From positions 806,001-870,000 of the forward strand of contig NZ_BEWM01000001.1 in assembly GCF_002723935.1 (NCBI RefSeq): 64,000 nt of DNA, written 5' to 3'. This DNA is from Gluconobacter cerinus. Its GTDB lineage: Bacteria > Pseudomonadota > Alphaproteobacteria > Acetobacterales > Acetobacteraceae. This document shows, piece after piece, positions 4,277 to 17,807 of the stretch. Made by a program: the position numbers and the translations under genes. Below the pieces are notes generated by a model. It did no database searches and was not told the origin of the DNA. It saw only the letters and a program-made list of their open reading frames with translations. Numbering within the stretch: the stretch's first letter is position 1; each line of letters opens with the position of its first letter.

Positions 4277-7200
4277 ATGACGTCCAACCTTCTGATCAAT
4301 GAATTCATGTTCAATCCAAGTACATCGGGAGATCCAAACGAATTTATTGAAGTCAAAGGGGACGCCGACACAGATTACAGTGAATGGTCACTGATCGTTG
4401 TTGATGGTGACGGCAGCGTCGCGGGCAAAATTGACAACGTTTTTCAGCTCGGGACGACCAACAGCGCTGGCTACTGGGTGACGCCATACCAGACGAATGC
4501 TTTGCAGAACGGCACGCAAACTGTCCTTTTGGTCAAGAATTTCACCGGCAAGGCTGGCGATGATCTCGATACCGCCAATGGTGGGACGTTCACGTCCACG
4601 CCCTGGTCTGAGATTGGAGATACCATTGCCGTTTCAGACGGTGGCAGCGGTGATCCGACCTATGCTGGCGCTCCGGTTCTGACGGGTAAGCTGATTGCCG
4701 GCGCCTCCCGCATTCCAGATGGAACGGACACAAACAGCGCCTCCGACTGGGCAATTGATGACCCCTCACTGGCTGGTATCGAAGGCTACGGAACCACTGC
4801 CGCTGCGGGAACGGTTCTGGTTACACCGGGAGCCGCCAATGACGGGAGCGCTACAGGCGGTTCAGGAACAGGCACCAACACAGGTGGTTCTGATACCGGC
4901 ACGGGAGGCTCTTCGGGCTCCGATACCGGGAGTGGAACGGGCACTGGCACCGGATCGGAAACAGGCGGAAGCTCGTCTGGCGGAACCAGCACCACGCCCC
5001 AGACTCTGACAATCCAGCAGATCAATGGCGTCGGCTATTACAGCCCGTATGCGGGCGCCAGCGTCACAACCACTGGCGTCGTCACAGCAATCGATACGAA
5101 TGGCAGCATCGGCTTTTGGGTTCAGCAGGCCAGCAAAGACAAGGACAGCATCGGTAGCACAGGCATCTTTGTCTATGCGGGCAAGACAGCCACCCTTCCG
5201 ACCGTGGGCGAAACCGTTACCATTACCGGAACCGTCACGAACTATTCCGGCACCTCCTGGAGCAAGTCCCTCACGCTGCCGGAGATCAATCTGGTCTCTT
5301 ACACCGATACGGGCGCGACCTACGCAGAGATTGCTCCGACGGTCATTGGTCAGGGTGGCCTGACGGTTCCAGCCGCATCTTACCTTGGTGACCTTGAGCA
5401 GGCGATCGATCTTAACAAGAGCACGGCGTCTCTCAGCCCGGACACGAACGCTCTTGATTTCTACCGCAACCTCATCGGTCAGGTCATTACCCTGCATGAT
5501 GTCGTAGCGACCGGCGCCACCGCGTCCAATGCCACATGGGTCGTGCCTGATAATGGTAATGGCCTCCTGACACCCACCGGTGCGCTTCAAAGCACCGAGA
5601 GCAGCATCAACACCCAGCGCGTCGAAATCTATTACGACAGCGGTGTCACGCCTGGTTCGGCCATCAGTGCCGAAGTCGGTGACAAGCTTGGCGATATCAC
5701 GGGCGTGCTGACCTATTACAACGGCGTCTATGAACTGATCCCAACCACACAGGTCACCGTCATTCACACGGAAACGCCTGCACCGGTTACGACCTTCCAC
5801 AAGGACGAGCAGAATCTTCTCGTCAGTGACTATAACATCGAGAATTTCAACGCTCTTGATCCGGCCAATGCAGACCGTCTGGCGCAGGTTGCCAAGATCA
5901 TCGTACAGAACCTCGATAATCCTGACGTTTTAGCCATTCAAGAAATCCAAGACGACAGCGGCACAACCAGCGATGGTACGGTCAGCGCCGAGCAAAACCT
6001 CGCAGCGCTGGTCAAGGCAATCGCAGATGCCGGTGGCCCGACCTACTCGTGGGCGCAGGTTGATCCTGCCAATAACACGCAGGGCGGCGTCACGGGCGGC
6101 AACATCCGTAGCGTGTTCCTGTACAACGCAGACCGCGTCACGCTGAAAGAGCCCGTTACCACCATTGGCAGTGAGGAACTGAGCGGCACGTTCAAGAATA
6201 CCCGCCTGCCACTGGTTGGAACCTTCGAGTTCAACGGCAAGGACGTCACGCTCATCAACGTGCATCTGTCCTCCCAGGCTGGAAGTTCGGAGCTTTATGG
6301 CGCGACCCAGCCACCGGTAAACCATGGCGGCACGACAGCGACGGTTAACAACCGTATCGCGCAGGCCCAGTACATCACGAACTACGTCCAGAACCAGCTT
6401 TCGAGCGATCCAACCGCCAAGATCGGCATCCTCGGAGACTTCAATGACGTGGCGTGGAGCGACGCCAATCAGGTCTATGCCAACGCTGGCCTGACAGACA
6501 TGGAAACCAAGGAAGACGCGAGCAACCGCTACACCTACATCTACGAAGGTAACGCTCAGTCCCTTGATCACACCATCGGCACAGACGGGTTCGCCAATGC
6601 AGGCCAGTTCCAGACCCTGCATATCAACACAGGGCAGCTGGATGGTGAATCGGATCACGATCCGTCCCTGACCCTGCTGGAAATGACGGACTACAGCGCC
6701 ACAAGCGGCGCAGCTCTGTCCGACGTTGCTCTAACGAATAGTCAGACCGCTGCCGTTCACAGCGGAAGCACAGCCTCGAACATCAGCGTTGGTGATGGCA
6801 GCCGCCTGGCACTTTATGCCGGCAGCACGACCAAGAATATCCATCTTGCCAGTGGTGCAAAAGTGGATCTGCCGGAACTCGCCTGGTCCAGCAGCACAAC
6901 AGCAACCCTGACAGACCCTTCCACGCTGGAAATTTCCAACGGCACAGACACCTATACAATAGCCCTAGACAGCGATTACGCCGCCGATTTCTTCACAGTT
7001 CAGTCTGACAGTACAGGCGGCACCCTGCTCCTCGCCGAAGGGACGCCATGCTATTGCCGCGGCACGCTCATCCTGACGAACCGCGGGGAAATTCCCGTCG
7101 AGCAGCTTGAAATCGGTGATCTGGTTCAAACCCGCTCGAACGGTCTGCGGGCTATTCACTGGATCGGTCGCCGCAGCTATTCGGGTACGTTCGCCAATGG

Positions 7201-9556
7201 CAACCGCGACATCCTGCCAGTCATTTTCCGGAGCGGTTCTCTGGGCAACAATCTGCCCCAGCAGGATCTGTCCGTTTCGCCGCTCCACGCCATGTATCTG
7301 GACGGGGTCCTGATCCCTGCAGTCGCTCTGGTCAATGGCACGAGCATCCTTCAGGCAGAACGCATGGATGAGGTGGCTTATTTCCACATTGAGCTGGAAA
7401 GCCACGACGTTATCTTCGCGAACGGTGCAGAATCTGAAACCTTTGTAGACGACAGCTCTCGCGGCATGTTCCACAATGCCTCTGAGTATGATGCGCTCTA
7501 TCCTGCAGCAGCGCAGGCTCAGGCCCGCTATTGCGCACCGCGTGTTGAAGAAGGCGCTCAACTAGCCACTATCCGGACGCGCCTGAACGCTCTTTCGACG
7601 AAAACACGTGTGGCAACGGGCGCTCTGGAAGGCTTCCTAGACGTCGTAACCCACACCCATATTGAAGGATGGGCACGCATTCCGGGCAGCACTGACGCCG
7701 TTCGTCTTCAGATCCTTGATAATGGGGTTGTTCTCGGCGAAGTCACTACGTCAACGGCAAGGCCAGATGTTGGTGGAGCCTGTGGCTTCCGATTTGACAT
7801 TCCAGGCGGTCTGTCTCCGCTGGATCGTCACGTTCTGGAAGTGCGTCGCGCCACCGATCATGCTCCCCTGGGCAACACGCCCTGGATGATGGACCAGATG
7901 GAGCAAAAAATTCCACAGGCTGTTCTATCACCGTCGCCAGTGGCCCCTCTGGATGGCTTCATCGACATCGCTACACGCAATCGCATCTCCGGCTGGGCGA
8001 CGAACCCTGCTGACTCCGAAGATGTCGTGACGCTGCAGATTGTCGATAACGGTGTGGTTCTCGCTTCCATCGTGGCGAACGGTCGTCGCCCCGATGTTGC
8101 CAAGAGCGGACGGCCCCTGCTCTGCGGCTTCGATGTGATCCTGCCCGGCGGCCTCTCCCCCCTCACACGCCATGTTCTGGAAGTGCGTCGGGAAGAGGAC
8201 GGCGCACTTCTGGGCACACCACAGGTTCTGGAACCCGTAACGGCCTTCGACGCGGATATGGAGCAGACTGTAGCCCGCGCTGTGTCTGCCGCCGCTGACG
8301 AACAGTCCGGCGATCAGGTTCTGTCCTTCCTCCTTGGACAGGTGGAAAAACTCCGACAGTCCCGTGCTCTGGCCGTGAGTGGTCTGGCAGAACAGTCGCT
8401 TCATGCCACGCGCCGTCGCCGGGGAATGCCCACGAAGGCCACCACGCAACGCAAGCGCGCGCTCGTCATTGACAGCCTTCGCCCCGATGCCAAGCGGGAT
8501 GCAGGGTCGCAGGCGATCCTGTCTCACATGATGGCCCTCGAAACTCTGGGTTATGACGTCTGTTTCGTAGCCGCTGACCAAATGGACATGACCGCTCCTC
8601 TGGACTCACTGCCGAGTGTAAAGGTGCAGGGGCTACCGTTCTTTGCGTCCGTCGAAGACGTTCTGCGCCGCCAGTTGAACAGCTTCGACGTCGTGTATCT
8701 GCACCGTGAAGATATCGCGACGCGCTACATGGCACTCGTCCGCCGTAACCAACAAAGAGCCTACGTCCTCTACAGCGTAGCAGACCTTCACTTCCTGCGT
8801 CTGGCACGTCAGGCCGCAGTGCAGGGCCGACCGGAACTGATGGCGAAAGCCAATCAGATTCGCGTGGCGGAATACCGTGCAGCTCTCCAGGCGGATGCTG
8901 TCCTGACGCACTCTGAAGCAGAAGCGGCCCAGCTTCGGAAAGATCTGCCGCAAGCCATCGTGCATGTGGTTCCATGGGCAACACCTGCGGCCAACAGATC
9001 GTCCACAAGCCACGACAGAAACGGCGTACTGTTCATTGGCAATTACGCACATGCCCCAAACAGTGATGCCGTGCAGTGGCTGGTGCATGACATCATGCCC
9101 GCAGTGTGGGCCATGGATCCGACCATTACCTGCACACTGGTTGGGGCAGAGATGCCAGACAGCATCCATGCTCTGGCCAGCGATCGCATCCGGGTTCTTG
9201 GTCATGTCCAGAACCTGGACAGCGTGCTGAATCAGGCGCGCCTCAGTGTCGCTCCTCTCCGGTTCGGGGCAGGCATCAAGGGCAAGGTTCTGGAAAGCCT
9301 CTCTGCGGGCGTACCCTGCATCATGACGCCCGTGGCCGCAGAAGGACTGGCGCTTCCGGAAAGCCTGCGTGGCCTTGTCCAGTCCACCAGCCAAGACATG
9401 GCCCAACAGATTGTGGCGCTGCATTCCGCCAAAACTCTGTCTGGCACCATTGAAGCCGGACAGACATACACCAGCGTCACATTCTCTGAAGGCGCTGTGA
9501 CAACAGCACTAGGTATGGCACTTGAGCGGAAAGTAACGCTTCAGGCAGCAGGCTGA
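4277..9556 (+). CDS. Giant fusion: LTD / OB / EEP nuclease / Hint / repeat domains / GT4 glycosyltransferase
   Basis: One unbroken frame of 1759 residues. In order: lamin-tail domain (about 1-180, INEFMFNPSTSGDPNEFIEV); Gly/Ser/Thr linker (188-240); OB-like domain (245-490) as in ExeM-type nucleases; DNase I-like EEP nuclease (510-800) with N520, E556, H663, GDFND at 720-724 and SDHDPS at 792-797; a repetitive beta-rich stretch (805-915); a Hint_2 domain (923-1085) with nucleophile-like C925 (TPCYCRGT) and H1004 (SVSPLH); two related domains (about 1115-1195 and 1223-1313) each with GWA and LSPL(D/T)RHVLEVRR; and a GT4 glycosyltransferase (1393-1742, PLRFGAGIKGKVLESL). No N-terminal signal peptide is visible although LTD-EEP nucleases are normally secreted. 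The ATG has AGGG 10 bases upstream. The Hint domain suggests self-cleavage between the nuclease and the C-terminal half (inference). Confidence 0.9.
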   Translation: MTSNLLINEFMFNPSTSGDPNEFIEVKGDADTDYSEWSLIVVDGDGSVAGKIDNVFQLGTTNSAGYWVTPYQTNALQNGTQTVLLVKNFTGKAGDDLDTANGGTFTSTPWSEIGDTIAVSDGGSGDPTYAGAPVLTGKLIAGASRIPDGTDTNSASDWAIDDPSLAGIEGYGTTAAAGTVLVTPGAANDGSATGGSGTGTNTGGSDTGTGGSSGSDTGSGTGTGTGSETGGSSSGGTSTTPQTLTIQQINGVGYYSPYAGASVTTTGVVTAIDTNGSIGFWVQQASKDKDSIGSTGIFVYAGKTATLPTVGETVTITGTVTNYSGTSWSKSLTLPEINLVSYTDTGATYAEIAPTVIGQGGLTVPAASYLGDLEQAIDLNKSTASLSPDTNALDFYRNLIGQVITLHDVVATGATASNATWVVPDNGNGLLTPTGALQSTESSINTQRVEIYYDSGVTPGSAISAEVGDKLGDITGVLTYYNGVYELIPTTQVTVIHTETPAPVTTFHKDEQNLLVSDYNIENFNALDPANADRLAQVAKIIVQNLDNPDVLAIQEIQDDSGTTSDGTVSAEQNLAALVKAIADAGGPTYSWAQVDPANNTQGGVTGGNIRSVFLYNADRVTLKEPVTTIGSEELSGTFKNTRLPLVGTFEFNGKDVTLINVHLSSQAGSSELYGATQPPVNHGGTTATVNNRIAQAQYITNYVQNQLSSDPTAKIGILGDFNDVAWSDANQVYANAGLTDMETKEDASNRYTYIYEGNAQSLDHTIGTDGFANAGQFQTLHINTGQLDGESDHDPSLTLLEMTDYSATSGAALSDVALTNSQTAAVHSGSTASNISVGDGSRLALYAGSTTKNIHLASGAKVDLPELAWSSSTTATLTDPSTLEISNGTDTYTIALDSDYAADFFTVQSDSTGGTLLLAEGTPCYCRGTLILTNRGEIPVEQLEIGDLVQTRSNGLRAIHWIGRRSYSGTFANGNRDILPVIFRSGSLGNNLPQQDLSVSPLHAMYLDGVLIPAVALVNGTSILQAERMDEVAYFHIELESHDVIFANGAESETFVDDSSRGMFHNASEYDALYPAAAQAQARYCAPRVEEGAQLATIRTRLNALSTKTRVATGALEGFLDVVTHTHIEGWARIPGSTDAVRLQILDNGVVLGEVTTSTARPDVGGACGFRFDIPGGLSPLDRHVLEVRRATDHAPLGNTPWMMDQMEQKIPQAVLSPSPVAPLDGFIDIATRNRISGWATNPADSEDVVTLQIVDNGVVLASIVANGRRPDVAKSGRPLLCGFDVILPGGLSPLTRHVLEVRREEDGALLGTPQVLEPVTAFDADMEQTVARAVSAAADEQSGDQVLSFLLGQVEKLRQSRALAVSGLAEQSLHATRRRRGMPTKATTQRKRALVIDSLRPDAKRDAGSQAILSHMMALETLGYDVCFVAADQMDMTAPLDSLPSVKVQGLPFFASVEDVLRRQLNSFDVVYLHREDIATRYMALVRRNQQRAYVLYSVADLHFLRLARQAAVQGRPELMAKANQIRVAEYRAALQADAVLTHSEAEAAQLRKDLPQAIVHVVPWATPAANRSSTSHDRNGVLFIGNYAHAPNSDAVQWLVHDIMPAVWAMDPTITCTLVGAEMPDSIHALASDRIRVLGHVQNLDSVLNQARLSVAPLRFGAGIKGKVLESLSAGVPCIMTPVAAEGLALPESLRGLVQSTSQDMAQQIVALHSAKTLSGTIEAGQTYTSVTFSEGAVTTALGMALERKVTLQAAG

Positions 9557-9564
9557 AGAAAAAG

Positions 9565-10632
9565 TCAGGACTGACCCAGGAGAGCCATCCATCGATCCAT
9601 GATGGGGCCTTCCTGAAATTCCAGCGCTTTAAGGCGGCCCATGTCAGACATGGCCCGCCTTTTTTCATTCTGCTCCATCAGAGCCAGAAGAGCTTCAGCA
9701 AGTCCGATATAATCCTCTGGTGGCACGAGAATTCCTGTTTCCTCCGGCACAACCACTTCCGCCGGGCCGGTTTCGCAATCGAAAGCCACCACCGGCACTC
9801 CCGCAGAGGCAGCCTCCAGCAGAACCATCGGCAGTCCTTCGTAGCGCGATGAACACACATAGAGCGCGGCCTGCCGGTAATCGTCGTCAAGATGAGGGGT
9901 CGCGGGGGCAATCGTCACCCGCTTCAGGCACCCCGCCTGTTGCAGAAGCATGAGCCGTTCCGGTCCGTCTCCACGAATAAGCAGACACCAGCCTGCTCCG
10001 CGTTGATCGGCTTCTATAATCGCCCAGGCTTTCAGAAGGAGATCATAGCCTTTCTGAGCGGTCAGCCGACCTGCCGTCAAAACAAAACGAGAAGTCTGCG
10101 CATAAGCTGTCTGCCAGACCCGGGGGGCCATATTCGGAATAACTGACAGAGACGCTTTGAGGGATAGTCCTGCCTGCCAGAGCGCTTTGTCACGCGCCGT
10201 CAGGACCACCACATCATCAGCCCATCGTGCCGCAATCTGCCGCCCCCAGACCCGTTTGCGACGCCCCAGCGCAATGTTGAAATTGAAGTGCTCCCACACG
10301 ATGCACCGACACCCGGCCAGACGGGCCGCAGCCACGCCATACAGAGCATGTGTGGCTTCCACGACAATTAGTGTGTCGATGCGGTGACGCTTCAGATAGC
10401 GCACCAATTTCCCAACAATTCGTGGCCAGGAGCTGAAAATTTTTACCGGCTTTTCAAACAGGGATTTTACGGGAATTCTGTCATCCAGCGGAAAGACGGG
10501 CGGGCCGTTTCCCACCAGTTCCAGCAGATGAACCGTCACATCCCGCTGAACAAGCCCGTTCATCACCGCGCAGGCAGAGCGTTCGGTTCCGCCTGTTGCA
10601 TTAATATGTTGGATGACAAAGGCGCACCGCAT
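9565..10632 (-). CDS. GT4-family glycosyltransferase
   Basis: A 355-residue retaining glycosyltransferase of the GT4 type (GT-B fold). The amino end reads MRCAFVIQHINATGGTERS, with the typical donor-side Gly-Gly-x-E. The carboxy half has FVLTAGRLTAQKGYDLLLKA and the nucleotide-sugar motif SSRYEGLPMVLLEAASAGVP (ExxxxxxxE), followed by DCETGPAEVV, a sequence common in poly(glycerol/ribitol-phosphate) and lipopolysaccharide-type GT4 enzymes. It is convergent with the giant fusion, with only 8 bases between the stops, and divergent from the ferredoxin reductase. The acceptor is unknown; a cell-surface glycan is likely from the family. Confidence 0.88.
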   Translation of the reverse strand: MRCAFVIQHINATGGTERSACAVMNGLVQRDVTVHLLELVGNGPPVFPLDDRIPVKSLFEKPVKIFSSWPRIVGKLVRYLKRHRIDTLIVVEATHALYGVAAARLAGCRCIVWEHFNFNIALGRRKRVWGRQIAARWADDVVVLTARDKALWQAGLSLKASLSVIPNMAPRVWQTAYAQTSRFVLTAGRLTAQKGYDLLLKAWAIIEADQRGAGWCLLIRGDGPERLMLLQQAGCLKRVTIAPATPHLDDDYRQAALYVCSSRYEGLPMVLLEAASAGVPVVAFDCETGPAEVVVPEETGILVPPEDYIGLAEALLALMEQNEKRRAMSDMGRLKALEFQEGPIMDRWMALLGQS

Positions 10633-10678
10633 GCGGGATGGTCTACCCCATTCAACTCAAAACGCCTAAGAAACAGAT

Positions 10679-11701
10679 ATGACGATTTCACCTCAAACCC
10701 TCTCCACCGACGTCGCAATTGTTGGCGCTGGTCCGACCGCCCTCTTCGCAGCCTTTGAATGCGGAATGCTCAAACTGAGCTGCGTCCTGATTGACGCGCT
10801 CGACAGTATTGGCGGTCAGTGCGCGGCGCTGTATCCGGAAAAGCCGATCTATGACATTCCGGCGCACCCTTCCATTGAGGGCGGCGCACTCATCGAAGCG
10901 CTGGATCAGCAGATTGCACCGTTCGACGTTCCCCGTCTGCTCGGCTCCCGCGTGGAAACCCTGACGGGCCACCGTGGGGACTTCACGCTCACCACAGCGC
11001 GTGGCGACACCGTGAAAGCCAAGGCTGTCATCATCGCGGCTGGAGCTGGCGCATTCGGTCCGAACCGTCCACCACTAGACGGACTGGAAGCGTACGAGCG
11101 CACAGGGGCAGTTCAGTACTACGTCAAGAAGCGTGCTGATTTTGCCGGTAAGAAAATTGTCGTTGCCGGTGGCGGCGATTCTGCTCTGGATTGGGCGCTG
11201 TCACTTTCAGAGGTCGCGGAGCACATTTATCTGCTGCATCGCCGAGACCGCTTCCGCGGTGCCCCGGAAACACTGTCCCGCATCGACGATCAGATCAAAG
11301 CGGGCCGTATTGAGAAGGTTGTCCCTTACCAGCTCCACGCCCTGCACGGTGCGGACGGCCAGCTTTCTGCCGTGGAAGTCACTACTCTAGCTGGCGAATC
11401 CCGCCATCTGGACGCTGATACGCTCCTGCCATTCTATGGCCTTTCCACGGATCTCGGCCCGATCGCGCTTTGGGGCCTGGACACGCATCGCAACACGGTT
11501 CCGGTCACCCCGGCGACCTTGGAAAGCAGCACACCTGGCATTTTCGCCATCGGCGATGTGGCAACCTATCCTGGTAAGCTTAAATTAATTCTTCAGGGAT
11601 TTTCTGAAGGTGCGATGGCAGTTCATGCCATTCACGCCATAGTTCATCCGGATACAGCCCTGCACTTCGAATATTCCACCAGCAAGGGCGTTCCGGGCTG
11701 A
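10679..11701 (+). CDS. Ferredoxin/flavodoxin--NADP+ reductase, thioredoxin reductase-like (YumC type)
   Basis: A 340-residue FAD- and NADPH-binding oxidoreductase. It has the FAD motif VGAGPTALFAAFECGM near residue 15, GGQCAALYPEKPIYDIP at about 44-60, the NADPH motif GGGDSALDWAL near residue 165, and the C-terminal FAD motif IFAIGDVATYPGK. It lacks the CxxC redox pair of thioredoxin reductase, and the tail GFSEGAMAVHAIHAIVHPD is typical of the YumC-type ferredoxin-NADP reductases. It would supply electrons to ferredoxins or flavodoxins in the cytosol. The Shine-Dalgarno is weak (AAGAAACAG). It precedes dadA by 97 bases on the same strand. Confidence 0.9.
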   Translation: MTISPQTLSTDVAIVGAGPTALFAAFECGMLKLSCVLIDALDSIGGQCAALYPEKPIYDIPAHPSIEGGALIEALDQQIAPFDVPRLLGSRVETLTGHRGDFTLTTARGDTVKAKAVIIAAGAGAFGPNRPPLDGLEAYERTGAVQYYVKKRADFAGKKIVVAGGGDSALDWALSLSEVAEHIYLLHRRDRFRGAPETLSRIDDQIKAGRIEKVVPYQLHALHGADGQLSAVEVTTLAGESRHLDADTLLPFYGLSTDLGPIALWGLDTHRNTVPVTPATLESSTPGIFAIGDVATYPGKLKLILQGFSEGAMAVHAIHAIVHPDTALHFEYSTSKGVPG

Positions 11702-11798
11702 AAAGCCGGGGGTAGACAACCGTTTCCGCTGGTGCTGATCTGATCGGTACCAAATCGAAAATACGGTTTTCTACCAATCGGAAAGCAGCAGAACTGTC

Positions 11799-13052
11799 AT
11801 GAAAATCATCGTCATGGGCGCCGGCGTCATCGGCGTGACAACCGCCTGGTATCTTGCTCAGGAAGGTCATGAAGTTGAGGTTATTGACCGGCAGCCTGGC
11901 GTAGGGCTTGAAACGTCCTTCGCCAACGCCGGTCAGGTCTCCCCTGGTTACTCGACACCATGGGCCATGCCGGGTCTGCCGTTCAAAGTCGCCAAATGGA
12001 TGACCAGCAAACACAGTCCGCTGATCATCCGCCCGCGCTTCGACACGGCCATGTTCCGCTTCATGGGCGAGCTGCTCGCGAACTGTTCGGAAAAAGCATA
12101 CGACATTAACAAGAGCCGTATGCTTCGAATTGCGGAGTATGCCCGCGATAAAATCGACGCCCTGCGCGACGAAACCGGCATCACATATGACGGAGACCAA
12201 AAGGGTCTGATCCAGCTTTTCCGGACGGATGCCCAGGTCGAACACGCAGCCGAGGACATGCGTCTTCTGGCAGAAAGCGGCGTGGATCATCAGCTTCTGA
12301 ACGTCGATGAAATCATTGCGCATGAACCAGGTCTGGCCCATGCACGCCATCGTCTGCGTGGTGGCTTGCGCCTTCCGGGCGATCAGACAGGTGATGCGCA
12401 TCTCTTCACACGTCGTCTCGCTGCCATGGCAGAGCAGAAGGGTGTGAAGTTCCGTCTTGGCACCACGATTGAAGCCATCGAAGCGGCTGACAAATCCATC
12501 GTAAGCATTCGTACCAGCGCTGGCCGCCTGACAGCAGATGCGTATGTGCTGGCTCTTGGCAGCTACTCCCCACGCCTGATGAAGCCACTGGAGCTGCGTC
12601 TGCCGATCTATCCGGTCAAGGGATACTCCCTGACCATGCCAATCACAGACGAGAGCCGTGCGCCGGTATCCACGGTGAATGATGAAACCTACAAGGTTGC
12701 CATCACGCGCCTCGGGGATCGCATCCGCATTGGCGGCACGGCCGAACTGACTGGCTTCAGCTTACGCCTGAGCCCGGACCGTCGTGAAACGCTGGAACTG
12801 TCGTTCAACGAGATGTACGGCGGCGGCGACCTCTCCGCCGCCCGTTACTGGACCGGCCTGCGCCCCTGCACTCCAGATGGCACACCCATCGTCGGGCCAG
12901 CTCCGCGCTACGGCAATCTATGGCTTAACACCGGTCACGGCACGCTGGGCTGGACGATGGCAGCGGGCTCCGGCCAGATCGTTGCAGACCAGATCTCTGG
13001 CCGACAGACGGCCATTCCGTCACTGGATCTCTCTCTCGATCGCTACCTGTAA
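11799..13052 (+). CDS. dadA: D-amino acid dehydrogenase
   Basis: A 417-residue FAD-dependent membrane-associated dehydrogenase that oxidatively deaminates D-amino acids (classically D-alanine) to 2-oxoacids. The FAD-binding motif GAGVIGVTTAWYLAQEGHEV lies at the amino end, followed by LETSFANAGQVSPGYSTPWA, a DadA signature. The carboxy end holds YWTGLRPCTPDGTPIVGPAP and LNTGHGTLGWTMAAGSGQIV, the second FAD-contact region. Length matches DadA (about 415-432). A racemase gene, often linked to dadA, is not beside it. Transcription ends at the palindrome just past the stop. Confidence 0.94.
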   Translation: MKIIVMGAGVIGVTTAWYLAQEGHEVEVIDRQPGVGLETSFANAGQVSPGYSTPWAMPGLPFKVAKWMTSKHSPLIIRPRFDTAMFRFMGELLANCSEKAYDINKSRMLRIAEYARDKIDALRDETGITYDGDQKGLIQLFRTDAQVEHAAEDMRLLAESGVDHQLLNVDEIIAHEPGLAHARHRLRGGLRLPGDQTGDAHLFTRRLAAMAEQKGVKFRLGTTIEAIEAADKSIVSIRTSAGRLTADAYVLALGSYSPRLMKPLELRLPIYPVKGYSLTMPITDESRAPVSTVNDETYKVAITRLGDRIRIGGTAELTGFSLRLSPDRRETLELSFNEMYGGGDLSAARYWTGLRPCTPDGTPIVGPAPRYGNLWLNTGHGTLGWTMAAGSGQIVADQISGRQTAIPSLDLSLDRYL

Positions 13053-13056
13053 AACG

Positions 13057-13092
13057 ATGCTGCTATCGGCTTTATAAAGCTGATAGCAGCAT
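13057..13092. terminator. Near-perfect 18-bp palindrome between convergent genes
   Basis: Positions 13057-13074 and 13075-13092 are inverted copies with one G-T mismatch, centred on TTTATAAA. It starts five bases after the dadA stop and is followed by TTCTTTCTC on the plus strand. The gene from the other side ends at 13157. It is a plausible bidirectional terminator, although its T-run is imperfect. Confidence 0.65.
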
Positions 13093-13156
13093 TCTTTCTC
13101 TGGCAGACCGATCTGACGTGATCTGCCAAAATCGGTTTTTAGCTATACTCTTCCGC

Positions 13157-15262
13157 TCAAGCGGACAGAAAAGCCTGAACGTCCTCTGCGGACACTGTGC
13201 CTTCGTGCTCAAGCAGCTCCTGCTTACCACCAACATGATGGGGCATCACCATCAACGGCGTTCCGTCATCCATAAAGCGAATACGCAACGTCTCCCAATC
13301 TGGTGCTACAAACTGCTTGTAAGCCTGCACTAAAGCGCATTGGTCGATACACCAGTTGGTCGGATTATCCGGATTGTAGGCAATTTGAAGATAATTATGC
13401 AGGAAACGGGCGATGTCGGGCACTTTCTCCGCATTCCCAAAGTAGGAGATGCCAGCCCCAAAACCCCACGGCTCTCCAAAAAACTGATGCCCGGCTTTAT
13501 CGTATGCATAAAGGCGGAAGCCATAATCTGCCGTGGCTTTCATCTCTTCCCAGAGTGTCAAGAAATCTGACGGAAAGTAGCCATCACAGTCTGCGGTAAT
13601 GACCGGACAGCTCCAGCGCTCGGCAATTTCCGGAAAAATCAGATATCGAATGGCCGTGTAGGTTGCACCGTCACGGTAGGTCAGCGGGCCATGCGCAAAG
13701 GTGAAATCAAGCCCATAGTCATGCACCGACAAGGCACTGGCTATTTCTTCCAACCAGTCCAACTGTTCACTCGTCGGGCTATCGATACCCAGACAGAGGC
13801 GGATGCGGCCCCCCTTCGATCGGGCCATGCACACTTTCAGCAAAGACAGCACTAGCTTGGGAATGAACTGGAAGTATCCAGTATCACATCCGAAAACTAG
13901 ACAAAGCTCTGGCTGAACGTCCTCCTGCCCTGGAAGAACACTGGACTTCCAAGTCCACGCCGACGTTCCAAGACGGTCTTCCACGACTTTGTCTTCAAGG
14001 CCTGCAACTTCATTTTCAGGCAGCCACGAAAACACACCGCAATTATAGTGAATTGGCATGATCCCGGTTTCGATGGCTTGGGTCTTGGCCTCGCTATAAT
14101 GCTTGTCTGCGGCAGCTCGATCCCCGGACAGCCACGCGTCATGCCCTAAACAAATCTCGCTCCAGTAACGGATGCCATTACATGTCTGCTCATGCCGCAA
14201 AAGCGCCAGGCCACGGTCTCGGCCTTTACTGAAACAGGACTGCTCAAACATCAGACTGTAGGCCTGCACCACATCCTGATTATTTGTTGTGGCCAACTTC
14301 TGGGAGAGCATCAGGGAATCAAAAAGAGGATCGAAGCCACTTCCTGAAACCTGTTGCATCAGTTCTGGGAGAAGAAGAAGCATGTTCTCTCCTTCTGCCA
14401 TTCTGGTCTCAAGATACCCAAATTGCCTGATTATGCTCGGATCAGGGAACTGCTGTGCAAGCGCCTGAGACAGGTGCGCTGTCGCGGCAGCATGATCTCC
14501 CATCCGCTCCGACAGAATGGCCTGAAAGTAGATGAGATCAGGACGCTCATCATACAGTCGGGCACATTTCAAAAATTCCTGGGCAAAATCCAATCGCCCC
14601 TGCTCTGCGCACATCAACGCCAGATACAGAATATGAATGATTTCATGCGGAGCGACGGAAACTTTGAGAATTTGCCTGTTCAGCCATTCAGTTTCGGACG
14701 TTGAATCAATACCCATGAGACTCTCAGACAGGGCATTCAACAGTTGAGATAAGACTTTGGGCGGGCAAGATTCCAAGATCCAGACGGTCTCTTCGCCTTC
14801 AGTTTCCAAGAGAACGATATCATCTTCTCTCGTGGCCATCAGAGTTTCGAGAGGCCATGCTTGCTCCCCAATTACGAGAGAAAATTCACGAATATATGGG
14901 AGGTGCAAAGGCCCTTTCCCCATAGACCATCTGCGCGACAGCAGAGCATGAAGGACAGGAATGAGAGATGCCCGGATTGGAAGAAAGCTCTCCCAGTCCA
15001 TGTGATGCCCCGTCCAGTCCAGATCCATGGAATTCCGGCTGGAGAGAAACTCTGTCCCCATCCTCAGAACGCACAAAGGACGTGTTGTGTCAGGCAGTTC
15101 GCGAAGCACGAGCCCAGACCGGGCAGGTGTCACTTCATAGCCGTCCTCTAACAGAACTGGTGTGACCACTTTTAGCAAGACGTCTGCAAAGGATGCTGTG
15201 CAGAGGCAGGCTTCCCTGCTGGCAAGCAGTGTTCCATGCCAGGACAGAAGATAAGAAGTCAT
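13157..15262 (-). CDS. TPR-containing putative glycosyltransferase
   Basis: A 701-residue protein. Residues about 1-190 match nothing I recognise. About 200-390 look like helical tetratricopeptide repeats (ALMCAEQGRLDFAQEFLKCA, YFQAILSERMGDHAAATAHL). From about 440 the sequence resembles a nucleotide-sugar transferase of the GT-A fold: LVFGCDTGYFQFIPKLVLSL at the start, a middle segment RLCLGIDSPTSEQL, a candidate DxD-like site ITADCDGYFPSDF, and NPTNWCIDQCALVQAY near the end, as in GT8-like enzymes. I chose the ATG at 15262; a TTG three codons earlier is possible. It is convergent with dadA. TPR-glycosyltransferase fusions commonly act on proteins or surface glycans; the substrate here is unknown. 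Confidence 0.7.
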   Translation of the reverse strand: MTSYLLSWHGTLLASREACLCTASFADVLLKVVTPVLLEDGYEVTPARSGLVLRELPDTTRPLCVLRMGTEFLSSRNSMDLDWTGHHMDWESFLPIRASLIPVLHALLSRRWSMGKGPLHLPYIREFSLVIGEQAWPLETLMATREDDIVLLETEGEETVWILESCPPKVLSQLLNALSESLMGIDSTSETEWLNRQILKVSVAPHEIIHILYLALMCAEQGRLDFAQEFLKCARLYDERPDLIYFQAILSERMGDHAAATAHLSQALAQQFPDPSIIRQFGYLETRMAEGENMLLLLPELMQQVSGSGFDPLFDSLMLSQKLATTNNQDVVQAYSLMFEQSCFSKGRDRGLALLRHEQTCNGIRYWSEICLGHDAWLSGDRAAADKHYSEAKTQAIETGIMPIHYNCGVFSWLPENEVAGLEDKVVEDRLGTSAWTWKSSVLPGQEDVQPELCLVFGCDTGYFQFIPKLVLSLLKVCMARSKGGRIRLCLGIDSPTSEQLDWLEEIASALSVHDYGLDFTFAHGPLTYRDGATYTAIRYLIFPEIAERWSCPVITADCDGYFPSDFLTLWEEMKATADYGFRLYAYDKAGHQFFGEPWGFGAGISYFGNAEKVPDIARFLHNYLQIAYNPDNPTNWCIDQCALVQAYKQFVAPDWETLRIRFMDDGTPLMVMPHHVGGKQELLEHEGTVSAEDVQAFLSA

Positions 15263-15341
15263 GAAATCCAAATCCGGAAAATTGACGGGACGATAATCTT
15301 GAACGCAACAAGTCTGGGGTAACCGTACAGTAAAAACAAAA

Positions 15342-15373
15342 AAAGCGGGACCAGCCTGCGCCGATCCCGCTTT
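15342..15373 (-). terminator. Rho-independent terminator of the His/Lys-rich protein gene
   Basis: AAAGCGGGA (15342-15350) and TCCCGCTTT (15365-15373) form a 9-bp stem with a 14-base loop. On the minus strand the stem is followed by TTTTTTTGTTTTT, a strong U-tract. A smaller hairpin (15386-15402) lies between it and the stop codon at 15412. Confidence 0.85.
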
Positions 15374-15411
15374 CCTCTACTTACCACCCGGTAAAACCGG
15401 GTAAGCCGCCA

Positions 15412-15711
15412 TTAGTTGGACGGTGCTGCTTCATCCGTCGTGGAGGCAGCAGCGGCAGCCTTCTTGTGCTTCTTGTGGTGGTGCTTCTTGTGATGATGCT
15501 TCTTCGTGGTGCTCGTCTTGTCAGACATTGCGGCATCCGTGGATGCTGCTTCCGGAGCGGCGGCAGGCGCAGCCGGCTCTGCTGGCGCGGCAGGAGCCGT
15601 AGGAGCAGGCGTTGCTTCGACCGGAGCAGACACTGGATCAGCGAAAGCCGGAGCAGCTGTCAGGGCCAGAGCAGAAACGGCGGCGATTAGGGAACGATTG
15701 AAAAGGCGCAT
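15412..15711 (-). CDS. Small secreted Ala/Pro-rich protein with a His/Lys-rich segment
   Basis: A 99-residue product with a clear Sec signal peptide (MRLFNRSLIAAVSALALTAA, cleavage likely after AFA), then an Ala/Pro/Glu-rich low-complexity stretch (about 25-60), then a strongly basic block KKHHHKKHHHKKHKK at about 70-84 and an acidic-neutral tail. The ATG at 15711 has GGAG upstream. A longer reading that begins 21 codons earlier would bury the signal peptide and is unlikely. The gene stands alone with its own terminator. Function is unknown. The basic His-rich block could bind metal, nucleic acid or anionic envelope polymers; nothing in the sequence decides between these. Confidence 0.75.
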   Translation of the reverse strand: MRLFNRSLIAAVSALALTAAPAFADPVSAPVEATPAPTAPAAPAEPAAPAAAPEAASTDAAMSDKTSTTKKHHHKKHHHKKHKKAAAAASTTDEAAPSN

Positions 15712-15930
15712 CTGAGAACGAAGCTCCAGAGAACTGAAAAACGGACCACATTTCAGAAAATTTGAAGTGGCCATGCTTTGAAATTAGCACCAGTGCGCGT
15801 CTTCGTCGTGCATTAACTTTATGAAATTTCAGGGGGATAGAGGTTCCTCTTCGCAAAGACGCCTCAATTCCGCCAAAGTCCCGTCGAGGACTTTCTGATT
15901 TCTTGCCTCTCGACTCTCAGCCATAAAAAA

Positions 15931-15956
15931 ACGCGCACCGGAAACCCGGTGCGCGT
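15931..15956 (-). terminator. Rho-independent terminator of typA
   Basis: ACGCGCACCGG (15931-15941) pairs with CCGGTGCGCGT (15946-15956) around a 4-base loop, an 11-bp GC-rich stem. On the minus strand it is followed by a run of T (complement of 15925-15930). It lies 31 bases past the typA stop. Confidence 0.9.
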
Positions 15957-15986
15957 TCTTTAAAATCTATTCCCTGATGGGAAAGA

Positions 15987-17807
15987 TCAGCTTTCGCGGC
16001 TCTTGGAAGCGCGCTTACGCTCGTTCGGATCCAGGTAACGCTTACGGATACGAATGGCGGACGGCGTCACTTCAACCAGCTCATCGTCTTCAATGTAGGC
16101 GATGGCCTGCTCAAGGCTCATACGGCGCGGCGGCGTCAGAAGCAGGGCTTCGTCCTTGCCGGATGCACGCATGTTGGTCAGCTTCTTTTCACGGACCGCA
16201 TTGATGTCCAGATCGTTCTCGCGGGAGTGCTCACCCAGGATCATGCCTGTGTAAATCTTCTCGCCAGCGTCCACGAACATCGTGCCACGATCTTGAAGGG
16301 CGAACAGCGCGTACTGCGTTGTCTGACCGTCTTCAGCGGAGATCAGCGAGCCGTTACGACGGCCTTCGATCGTGCCGACATACGGCAGGTAACCATGGAA
16401 CAGACGGTTCATGAGGCCGGTGCCGCGCGTGTCGGTCAGGAACTCACCGTGATAGCCGATCAGGCCACGGGACGGGATCAGGAACGTCAAACGAACCTTG
16501 CCACCACCGGACGGACGCATGTCCTGCATCACACCCTTACGCAGGGACATCTTCTCGACGACAACACCCGAATACGGCTCGTCAACGTCGACCAGAACTT
16601 CTTCGAACGGCTCTTCACGATCGCCGGTCTCTTCGTTTTCACGGAAGAGAACGCGCGGACGACCGATCGTCAGCTCAAAGCCTTCACGACGCATCTGCTC
16701 GATCAGAACGCCAAGCTGAAGTTCACCACGACCGGCAACTTCAAAAGCTTCGCTTTCCGGGCTTTCCGTAACCTTAATGGCCACGTTGCCTTCGGTTTCC
16801 TTGAAAAGACGGTCACGGATCTGACGGGACGTAACCTTCTTGCCTTCACGGCCACCCAGTGGACCATCGTTGATACGGAAGGTCATGGACAGGGTCGGCG
16901 GATCAACCGGGCGGGACGGCAGCGGCTCGCTGATGGACGGATCAGCAATCGTGTCCGGAATCGTTGCTTCGGACAGACCAGCAACGGCCACGATGTCACC
17001 GGCTTCGGCTTCATCAACCGGCACACGGTCCAGGCCACGGAAAGACAGCAGCTTGGTCAGACGGCCTGTTTCGACAACCGTTCCGTCCGGACGCAGCACG
17101 CGAACAGGCATGTTCACCTTCGCACGGCCCTGATCGATACGACCCGTCAGGATACGGCCAAGGAAGTTGTCGCTCTCAAGGATGGTTGCAACCATGCCGA
17201 AAGGCGCATCCTTGTCGACGTTTGGCGTCGGGACGTGGCGCAGAACCAGATCGAACAGCGGGGACAGGTCCTTCTTCGGTCCTTCCAGCTCAAGATCAGC
17301 CCAGCCCTGACGGCCGGAAGCGTACAGCATCGGGAAGTCGAGCTGGTGCTCGTCAGCGCCCAGGGATGCGAACAGATCGAAGATTTCTTCGTGCACTTCG
17401 TCCGGACGCGCGTCGCTACGGTCGATCTTGTTCACGACCACGATCGGGCGGATGCCACGGGCCAGAGCCTTGCCCAGAACGAACTTCGTCTGCGGCAGAG
17501 CACCTTCAGCGGCGTCAACGAGGATGATCGCGCCATCTACCATGCTCAGGATACGCTCGACTTCGCCACCGAAGTCAGCATGGCCCGGCGTATCAATGAT
17601 GTTGATACGCGAGTCTTTCCAGACAACGGACGTGCACTTGGCAAGAATGGTGATGCCACGCTCGCGTTCGAGGTCATTGCTGTCCATCGCGCGATCAGCA
17701 ACGTGCTGGTTCTCGCGGAAAGAGCCGGACTGCTTGAGGAGCGCGTCAACCAGCGTGGTTTTGCCATGATCGACGTGCGCGATGATGGCGATGTTACGGA
17801 TTTCCAT
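15987..17807 (-). CDS. typA: Ribosome-associated translational GTPase TypA/BipA
   Basis: A 606-residue GTPase of the elongation factor family that binds the ribosome and aids assembly and growth under stress. The G motifs are AHVDHGKTT (G1), DTPGHADF (G3) and NKIDR (G4), followed by the EF-Tu-like domain 2, the two alpha/beta domains with RGELQLGVLIEQMRREGFEL and the BipA-specific C-terminal domain ending in RKRYLDPNERKRASKSRES. I start at the ATG at 17807, which has GGAAG seven bases upstream; the frame is open further upstream but without family similarity. It is divergent from queF and has its own terminator. Confidence 0.96.
   Translation of the reverse strand: MEIRNIAIIAHVDHGKTTLVDALLKQSGSFRENQHVADRAMDSNDLERERGITILAKCTSVVWKDSRINIIDTPGHADFGGEVERILSMVDGAIILVDAAEGALPQTKFVLGKALARGIRPIVVVNKIDRSDARPDEVHEEIFDLFASLGADEHQLDFPMLYASGRQGWADLELEGPKKDLSPLFDLVLRHVPTPNVDKDAPFGMVATILESDNFLGRILTGRIDQGRAKVNMPVRVLRPDGTVVETGRLTKLLSFRGLDRVPVDEAEAGDIVAVAGLSEATIPDTIADPSISEPLPSRPVDPPTLSMTFRINDGPLGGREGKKVTSRQIRDRLFKETEGNVAIKVTESPESEAFEVAGRGELQLGVLIEQMRREGFELTIGRPRVLFRENEETGDREEPFEEVLVDVDEPYSGVVVEKMSLRKGVMQDMRPSGGGKVRLTFLIPSRGLIGYHGEFLTDTRGTGLMNRLFHGYLPYVGTIEGRRNGSLISAEDGQTTQYALFALQDRGTMFVDAGEKIYTGMILGEHSRENDLDINAVREKKLTNMRASGKDEALLLTPPRRMSLEQAIAYIEDDELVEVTPSAIRIRKRYLDPNERKRASKSRES

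Follow-up and report, generated by a model that had tools for sequence, protein, structure and literature searches.

Why would a bacterium join a nuclease of extracellular appearance, a self-processing Hint domain and a sugar-transferring enzyme in a single polypeptide? The gene that raises this question lies at 4277-9556 on the forward strand of a 64,000-nt stretch of the Gluconobacter cerinus genome (GCF_002723935.1, NZ_BEWM01000001.1, positions 806,001-870,000, forward strand), referred to here as the window. It encodes 1759 residues, the length given in an earlier note on this DNA, in one ATG-to-stop frame without interruption. Its parts are, in order, a nuclease composed of lamin-tail-domain-like (LTD-like), OB and EEP regions, a short stalk, a Hint_2 domain with a conserved tail, two modules resembling fibronectin type III or immunoglobulin domains (FnIII/Ig-like), and a GT4-family glycosyltransferase (GT), each of them known singly. 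GWA is the name we coined for these ~100-residue modules; the part preceding the Hint is called the passenger, and the Hint subtype is named after the YCAPR motif in its tail. We propose that the gene product would serve as precursor to an extracellular DNase. Its layout is that of a module which Acetobacteraceae appear to reuse for surface and secreted proteins, in which an extracellular passenger is followed by a YCAPR-subtype Hint_2 domain, then by one or two FnIII/Ig-like GWA modules and finally by a GT4.

The earlier note also named an assembly artefact as a possible undoing of this gene. That an assembly or annotation error has joined two genes is extremely improbable, even though separate neighbouring genes are common in relatives. 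Among 60 relatives searched, the whole frame recurs as a single open frame in 10 other Gluconobacter genomes at 77-93% identity (the alignments span residues 1-1750 in one and reach 1758 or 1759 in the rest), and the remaining genomes of the genus hold parts only or different arrangements. The same order of parts is found in Acetobacter fallax and A. senegalensis, whose Hint-to-GT halves are 64% and 56% identical to that of the window. Since the frame is shared, with no stop, by 10 other Gluconobacter genomes and two Acetobacter species, it is not an assembly join. By a rough measure, the parts also appear to be under purifying selection on both sides of the joins: their median ratio of nonsynonymous to synonymous substitution rates (dN/dS) is 0.06-0.16, with dS near or above 1 and medians drawn from 6 to 11 usable of 11 pairs, and the highest value of all segments (0.22, 6 usable pairs) belongs to a Gly/Ser/Thr-rich linker. 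The residues singled out in the earlier note (N520, E556, D721, D793, H794, C925 and H1004) all stand at the positions it gave, and none of them differs between the window copy and the 10 orthologs.

One Hint subtype and its glycosyltransferase across Acetobacteraceae

Judged from sequence, the Hint of the YCAPR subtype is often tied to a GWA-GT, fused or neighbouring, with changing passengers. The family survey behind this statement covered 200 Acetobacteraceae genomes, with up to 16 Hint or up to six GT candidates scored per genome. A profile of the Hint and its tail had matches at E<=1e-40 in at least 124 genomes and a GWA-GT profile at E<=1e-60 in at least 92, while Hint_2 as such was present in 154, reaching at least 18 matches in a single genome. 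Forty-eight of the best 60 GT matches include GWA. For 32 of these 48, a Hint precedes the GT on the same strand, either within one frame with it or no more than 2 kb away, and six more are linked in other ways: by a fused Hint remnant (L186), by a Hint 1.8 kb upstream (L187), by one on the opposite strand (L104), or in swapped order (L194, L195 and L196), where the GT comes first, about 100 bases before the Hint, and the three loci form one clade on the GT tree. In total, 38 of these 48 are linked to a Hint, tying the GT gene to one kind of adhesin or secreted protein; 15 of the 16 matches without a same-strand upstream Hint were inspected for this count. Among the 12 best GT matches without GWA, three have a Hint.

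The G. cerinus genome itself holds 17 Hint_2 genes, two of which have a YCAPR tail. The second of these, on contig 2, encodes a 582-residue Hint protein and is followed, after 23 bases, by a separate gene for a 650-residue GWA-GT. In the stretches fetched (about 16-20 kb for each of the other Hints, one being a 7.5 kb contig), a GT accompanies 2/2 YCAPR Hints and 0/15 of the others, which carry a different tail of ~200 residues.

We further compared 50 Hint-GT pairs, gathered by similarity to the Hint-GT of the window and thus no census. Twenty-nine are fused in one frame and 21 are neighbouring genes, with a gap that has a median of 21 bases and ranges from -168 to +106. When mapped onto a 60-row GT tree, the fused state requires eight changes, at least three of them forced by well-supported branches. 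Hint and GT were thus joined or separated several times without parting company, as is usual for parts that share a task. The distances among Hints correlate with those among GTs (Mantel r 0.60, 0/2000 permutations, 43 loci).

What changes from locus to locus is the passenger: AIDA stalk repeats, RTX repeats (L126), long glycine-rich repeats or, in the window, a nuclease. Pfam matches to AIDA occur in the passengers of L051, L057 and L061, only that of L051 exceeding the cutoff, and a peptidase-S53-like passenger seen by eye in L103 has no such Pfam match. On the GT tree, the adhesin-bearing fusion L085 groups among nuclease-bearing ones (support 100/85 and 99/78). The earlier note had called the fusion of a secreted type of nuclease to a cytosolic type of GT unexpected; the fusion stands, and the premise is to be amended, as the joining of a GT via Hint to an extracellular-looking passenger without a signal peptide recurs in Acetobacteraceae.

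Several observations weigh against so close a tie. No Hint lies within 1.8 kb of nine inspected GWA-GT genes among the 48 (one of them on a 5 kb contig) or of L067. Among the matches listed, a GT adjoins 27/51 Hints above 255 bits and 36/83 above 200 bits, and the one that was inspected of the 24 apparently GT-less Hints above 255 bits (G112:C123) proved to be paired. With so many Hints of the subtype lacking a listed GT, the YCAPR-type Hint apparently works without a neighbouring GT as well. The Mantel test, moreover, leaves species phylogeny in, and shared ancestry alone would produce part of the correlation.

A rather unlikely explanation of the link, though one to be reckoned with, is that an operon was fused for co-expression only: the Hint would cut, the GT4 would build a surface polysaccharide or exopolysaccharide, and the passenger would stay untouched, being a surface protein with no more than a binding or working role in that glycan layer. 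It is opposed by the specificity of the link for one Hint subtype with changing passengers (2/2 versus 0/15 in G. cerinus) and by the persistence of the link whether the genes are split, fused or swapped in order; co-expression alone would seem too little to account for this. It is opposed weakly, too, by the recurrent neighbouring genes, among which no polysaccharide cluster was recognised, with Pfam scans made of only a sulfotransferase and one S24/HTH (helix-turn-helix) gene. The points in its favour concern the GT and are taken up with it below.

Some loci are of interest in themselves. At L056 (5936-13881), three consecutive Hint genes are followed by one GT gene, which suggests one GT serving several passengers. 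By eye, near-identical Hint genes on different G. cerinus contigs (L076:2935-4698 and L080:6026-7789; L068 and L069) look like recent duplications. L126, a metagenome bin labelled Microbispora, an actinomycete, has RTX-Hint and GWA-GT genes like those of Acetobacteraceae, and its taxon label is probably wrong.

Hint chemistry and the predicted cut before C925

The Hint_2 autoprocessing domain spans residues 924-1059 (7046-7453, forward strand, as are all parts of the gene), with C925 at 7049-7051 and H1004 at 7286-7288. The domain and both residues had been named in the earlier note, and Pfam places Hint_2 exactly there (E 9e-45), PF13403 scoring 153 bits versus a cutoff of 28.4 over model positions 1-146 of 147. 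The N-terminal Cys nucleophile and the block-B [ST]xxH motif are present as C925, S1001 and H1004; moreover, C925, S/T at 1001, H1004 and H1043 are kept in 99/99 distinct Hint sequences gathered by similarity to that of the window. Weak profile matches to intein-type structures were also obtained: in that to the PI-SceI intein (E 0.74), C925 is aligned with residue 1, and further matches are 1gpp (E 0.004) and the bacterial intein-like (BIL) domain 2lwy (E 0.03). With BIL domains the window protein shares a Hint fold in a bacterial setting; it differs from them in belonging to the Pfam family Hint_2 and to a subtype with a GT partner. This subtype is marked by the conserved tail at residues 1060-1112 (7454-7612), of SESFVDD..FHN..YCAPR..G..L type, in which YCAPR is invariant (20/20 aligned sequences).

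We considered and rejected the possibility that the Hint acts as a splicing intein: the HN at 1066-1067 is followed by Ala instead of Cys, Ser or Thr, and 21/50 pairs are two genes. By its missing C-terminal nucleophile, the window protein falls outside the inteins. With no splicing nucleophile after the Hint, the expected reaction is the N-terminal thioester chemistry known from Hedgehog, which would free the nuclease. Specifically, the P924-C925 bond would be converted to a thioester via the Hint and then cleaved, as suggested by the intact catalytic residues, and the Hint-GT half would remain inside after release of the nuclease. We consider it likely that the Hint cleaves the chain before C925. 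The idea, put forward in the earlier note, that the Hint splits the nuclease from the GT fits the predicted cut, given that the catalytic residues are kept in 99/99 sequences and that 21/50 pairs are encoded by separate genes anyway.

Two points complicate this picture and count against it. First, 59/72 YCAPR-type Hints have a proline at position -1 of the scissile bond. In inteins, Pro at -1 disfavours the N-S shift and slows the first step, so the cut at C925 may proceed slowly or only under certain conditions. Second, a further, C-terminal cut after N1067 may free the GT from the Hint. The stretch HDVIFANGAESETF at 1043-1056 is without HN, and the HN that follows the Hint is H1066-N1067, with Ala as the next residue; across 62 distinct SRxMFxN motifs, H is found in 56, Ala comes next in 56 and Ser in 1.

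Could the Hint be inactive, or cleave only rarely, with the fusion acting as a tethered enzyme in the cytosol or representing a gene in decay? The proline at -1 would agree with this, as would the lack of a signal peptide visible by eye, the Hint remnant fused to the GT in L186 and a broken eleventh ortholog (L029 in genome G002, where the OB region is interrupted and two frames result), which itself weighs against a working precursor. We nonetheless hold it to be quite unlikely, given the conservation of C925, S/T1001 and H1004 in 99/99 sequences, the median dN/dS of 0.07 in the Hint segment, the intact EEP active site, and the description of the related ExeM as an extracellular nuclease in an excerpt of PMC6085458.

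A close parallel to a Hint of this kind is offered by Hedgehog and Hog proteins, which share with the window protein a variable N-terminal secreted part, a Hint with an N-terminal nucleophile, and an extra module after the Hint. In Hedgehog, according to an excerpt of PMC2362128, this module is a sterol recognition region, whereas the window protein has GWA modules and a GT4 in that place. A Hedgehog-like ligation may be envisaged, in which the hydroxyl of a glycan or glycolipid that the GWA-GT half makes or holds attacks the Hint thioester, sugar replacing cholesterol; adhesins and, in this case, the DNase would become C-terminally joined to a cell-surface glycan, and uncatalysed cleavage, slow owing to Pro at -1, would hold back the precursor until that glycan is available. 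Such a ligation is in keeping with the position of the GWA-GT half, with an N-terminal nucleophile that has no C-terminal splicing counterpart, and with the Hints of the same genome that lack a GT and carry a different ~200-residue module at the same position. We regard it as improbable all the same: split pairs have the GT as a separate protein, perhaps not close by, the binding of sugar by FnIII/Ig-like modules is putative, and we know of no Hint domain that joins protein to sugar. If true, it would amount to a new kind of protein-glycan bond.

The nuclease passenger and its putative export

Returning to a nuclease released by cleavage before C925, we examined the passenger part by part. Residues 1-190 (4277-4846) had been taken for a lamin-tail domain in the earlier note, an assignment that did not hold: Pfam gives no match within residues 1-268 at E<=1, and PF00932 (LTD) has none at E<=0.001 anywhere in the G. 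cerinus genome. The region is therefore LTD-like by eye, and by its ExeM-like position, and no more. The N-terminal segment aligns in six rows, one from another genus, with a mean column identity of 75%, and no signal peptide is visible when this N-terminus is read by eye. It is followed by the Gly/Ser/Thr-rich linker (residues 191-244, 4847-5008), which differs among orthologs, and by a region resembling the OB/YhcR part of ExeM/NucH nucleases (residues 245-495, 5009-5761). The NCBIfam model of these nucleases, NF033681, matches residues 265-785 with E 1e-43, below cutoff (150 bits versus 300), and the OB and EEP regions together align along 555 residues to the structures 9sf9 and 9sf8 (E about 3e-60), which bears out the OB-like domain proposed earlier. 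The EEP nuclease domain proper (residues 505-800, 5789-6676) is likewise confirmed by Pfam (EEP at 519-775, E 8e-7), with the catalytic residues of the ExeM/NucH type (N520, E556, D721, D793 and H794) intact. Directly before the Hint stands a short segment resembling a beta-helix or AIDA stalk (residues 805-920, 6689-7036); its Pfam AIDA match (E 0.008) is below cutoff, and, by profile matches at other loci, similar segments also precede the Hint in several other passengers.

The order of LTD-like, OB/YhcR-like and EEP regions, as well as the active-site residues, is thus shared with ExeM/NucH nucleases (ExeM of Shewanella, Xds of Vibrio). According to the same excerpt of PMC6085458, ExeM carries a signal sequence and is anchored in the membrane through its C-terminus, which includes a putative rhombosortase site, whereas the window protein lacks a visible signal peptide and has Hint-GWA-GT in place of the anchor; by score and by its LTD region, it also falls outside the ExeM family. 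We consider it highly probable that the nuclease part acts outside the cell. The nuclease passenger has also moved between Hint types: in G026, from another genus, it is attached to a Hint with the other kind of tail and without a GT (other-tail profile E 6e-35, a profile to which the window protein has no match).

How would the nuclease leave the cell? Once released, this passenger, which has no Cys, would be exported, most likely by type I secretion, a route to which we give an even chance, and would then degrade or restructure extracellular DNA as ExeM-type enzymes do. Low Cys content is general here: 49/50 passengers have at most 1% (L119 has 3%). HlyD was found in 134/154 Hint_2-positive versus 18/46 Hint_2-negative genomes, and in 93/96 genomes with four or more Hint_2. 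Two points stand against this route: the association is raw, with phylogeny and incomplete genomes uncorrected, and the type I system of G. cerinus, where one HlyD exceeds the family cutoff and is preceded by an ABC gene, does not adjoin the Hint genes. No recurrent cluster of secretion genes was recognised among 365 neighbour frames from 41 loci, few of which are annotated; to judge by eye, a cluster that recurs in 7 loci resembles an ABC ATPase.

Two stretches are of note in this regard. In L185 (G. cerinus C2:486000-504000, at 7983-16463), ABC and HlyD genes are followed on the same strand by genes for a Sel1-repeat protein and a GT2-GT4 glycosyltransferase, which is another link between export and sugar transfer. 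In L200 (G119, C1:505000-524900), HlyD lies at C1:524777, ~8 kb from a second Hint and ~14 kb from a Hint-GT pair.

The glycosyltransferase and its possible acceptor

The C-terminal half begins with two GWA modules (residues 1116-1215, 7622-7921, and residues 1222-1325, 7940-8251), recognised by profile, structural model and Foldseek, and continues through a linker of predicted helices (residues 1326-1384, 8252-8428) into the GT4 (residues 1385-1759, 8429-9553). AlphaFold2 models, built with alignments from this analysis, reached a mean confidence (pLDDT) of 85 from Hint to GT and 89 for the GWA pair. In Foldseek, the GWA pair resembles FnIII and Ig pairs (best E 4e-7) with a template-modelling (TM) score of only about 0.25, so the likeness is local. 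Pfam scans of the window protein and several loci reported no family for GWA, and a sequence search of the PDB with the GWA-GT profile gave 0 matches at E<=0.001. The GT4 named in the earlier note is well supported: Pfam places the C-terminal half of a GT4 at 1583-1716 (E 5e-20), Glyco_trans_1_4 scores 72.8 bits versus a cutoff of 27, and prediction and Foldseek agree on a GT-B fold (best match 7qsg, E 2e-13, TM by target 0.64; others MshA and BshA, with E to about 1e-11, WaaG and PglA). Its C-terminal half is also shared with the GT4 family TIGR03087 (stp1), at E 7e-26 and below cutoff (91 bits versus 317); the window GT adds GWA modules and a Hint.

What might this GT glycosylate? The GT requires nucleotide sugars, which are cytosolic; the precursor must therefore be cytosolic when the GT acts, and the lack of a visible signal peptide fits this. 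AIDA-I and TibA passengers, for their part, carry a signal peptide and use type V export. As described in an excerpt of PMC4358343, the AIDA-I/AAH and TibA/TibC systems have a GT that serves an adhesin; AAH and TibC, which are separate proteins, belong to a heptosyltransferase family of their own, whereas here a GT4 is joined through a Hint to passengers some of which bear AIDA stalk repeats. Because TibC-type GTs serve AIDA-type adhesins, the passenger is a natural acceptor candidate. In the sequence of events that we tentatively propose, the chain would be synthesised in the cytosol without a signal peptide, and the GT4, attached or as a freed partner, would add sugar to the passenger, the Ser/Thr-rich linker and the stalk being the likely sites; the glycosylated precursor would then be cleaved by the Hint before C925 and the nuclease exported via type I secretion. 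We put this whole sequence somewhat short of an even chance, and grade in the same way the passenger's role as acceptor, taken by itself.

Several findings weigh against a protein acceptor. By their titles, the best fold matches of the GT have lipids, small molecules and polysaccharides as substrates, nothing that favours a protein. GWA also occurs near the start of Hint-less GT genes (fetched stretches L135, L128, L134, L137, L140, L141 and L144; in L135:4762-7365, the GWA gene has Pfam GT2 plus GT4). Lastly, Ser and Thr make up about 12-30% of GT-linked passengers and 23% of the nuclease passenger, versus 12.6 +- 2.7% in 130 mechanical background frames, and 19-32% of the 15 passengers of GT-less Hints in the same genome. 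We therefore dropped Ser/Thr richness as support for glycosylation; equal richness without a GT speaks for extracellular repeat proteins. These same findings lend weight to fusion for co-expression only, namely the GWA modules in GT genes without a Hint, the Ser/Thr richness that is not GT-specific, and the resemblance of the GT to the PEP-CTERM/XrtA glycosyltransferase TIGR03087 (below cutoff) and, by fold, to polysaccharide GTs.

At three loci, the last part of the Hint-GT gene overlaps with the start of a sulfotransferase gene (L049:7409-8311, L050:11456-12358 and L090:3730-4689; called by Pfam in L049 and L090 and by similarity in L050). This fits a decorated glycan or the finishing of one, without indicating where it is attached.

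No paper linking Hint_2 to a glycosyltransferase was found in the open-access literature, a body that leaves out most subscription journals and all preprints, and the single open-access mention that we found of a Hint gene in an acetic acid bacterium, in an excerpt of PMC11999647, gives its function as unknown. Hint_2 is abundant in Acetobacteraceae, and the tie of one subtype to a GT suggests a concrete, testable function, namely to set surface and secreted proteins free and to decorate them with sugar. If the passenger is indeed glycosylated, the module would be a single-chain protein glycosylation-and-release device with exchangeable passengers, of use as a tool and in studies of biofilms in acetic acid bacteria.

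Downstream of the fused gene lies a separate, convergent GT4 gene (9565-10632, reverse strand, 355 residues), which also adjoins 3/11 other fetched ortholog loci (L019, L021 and L022; flanks of ~1.5 kb).

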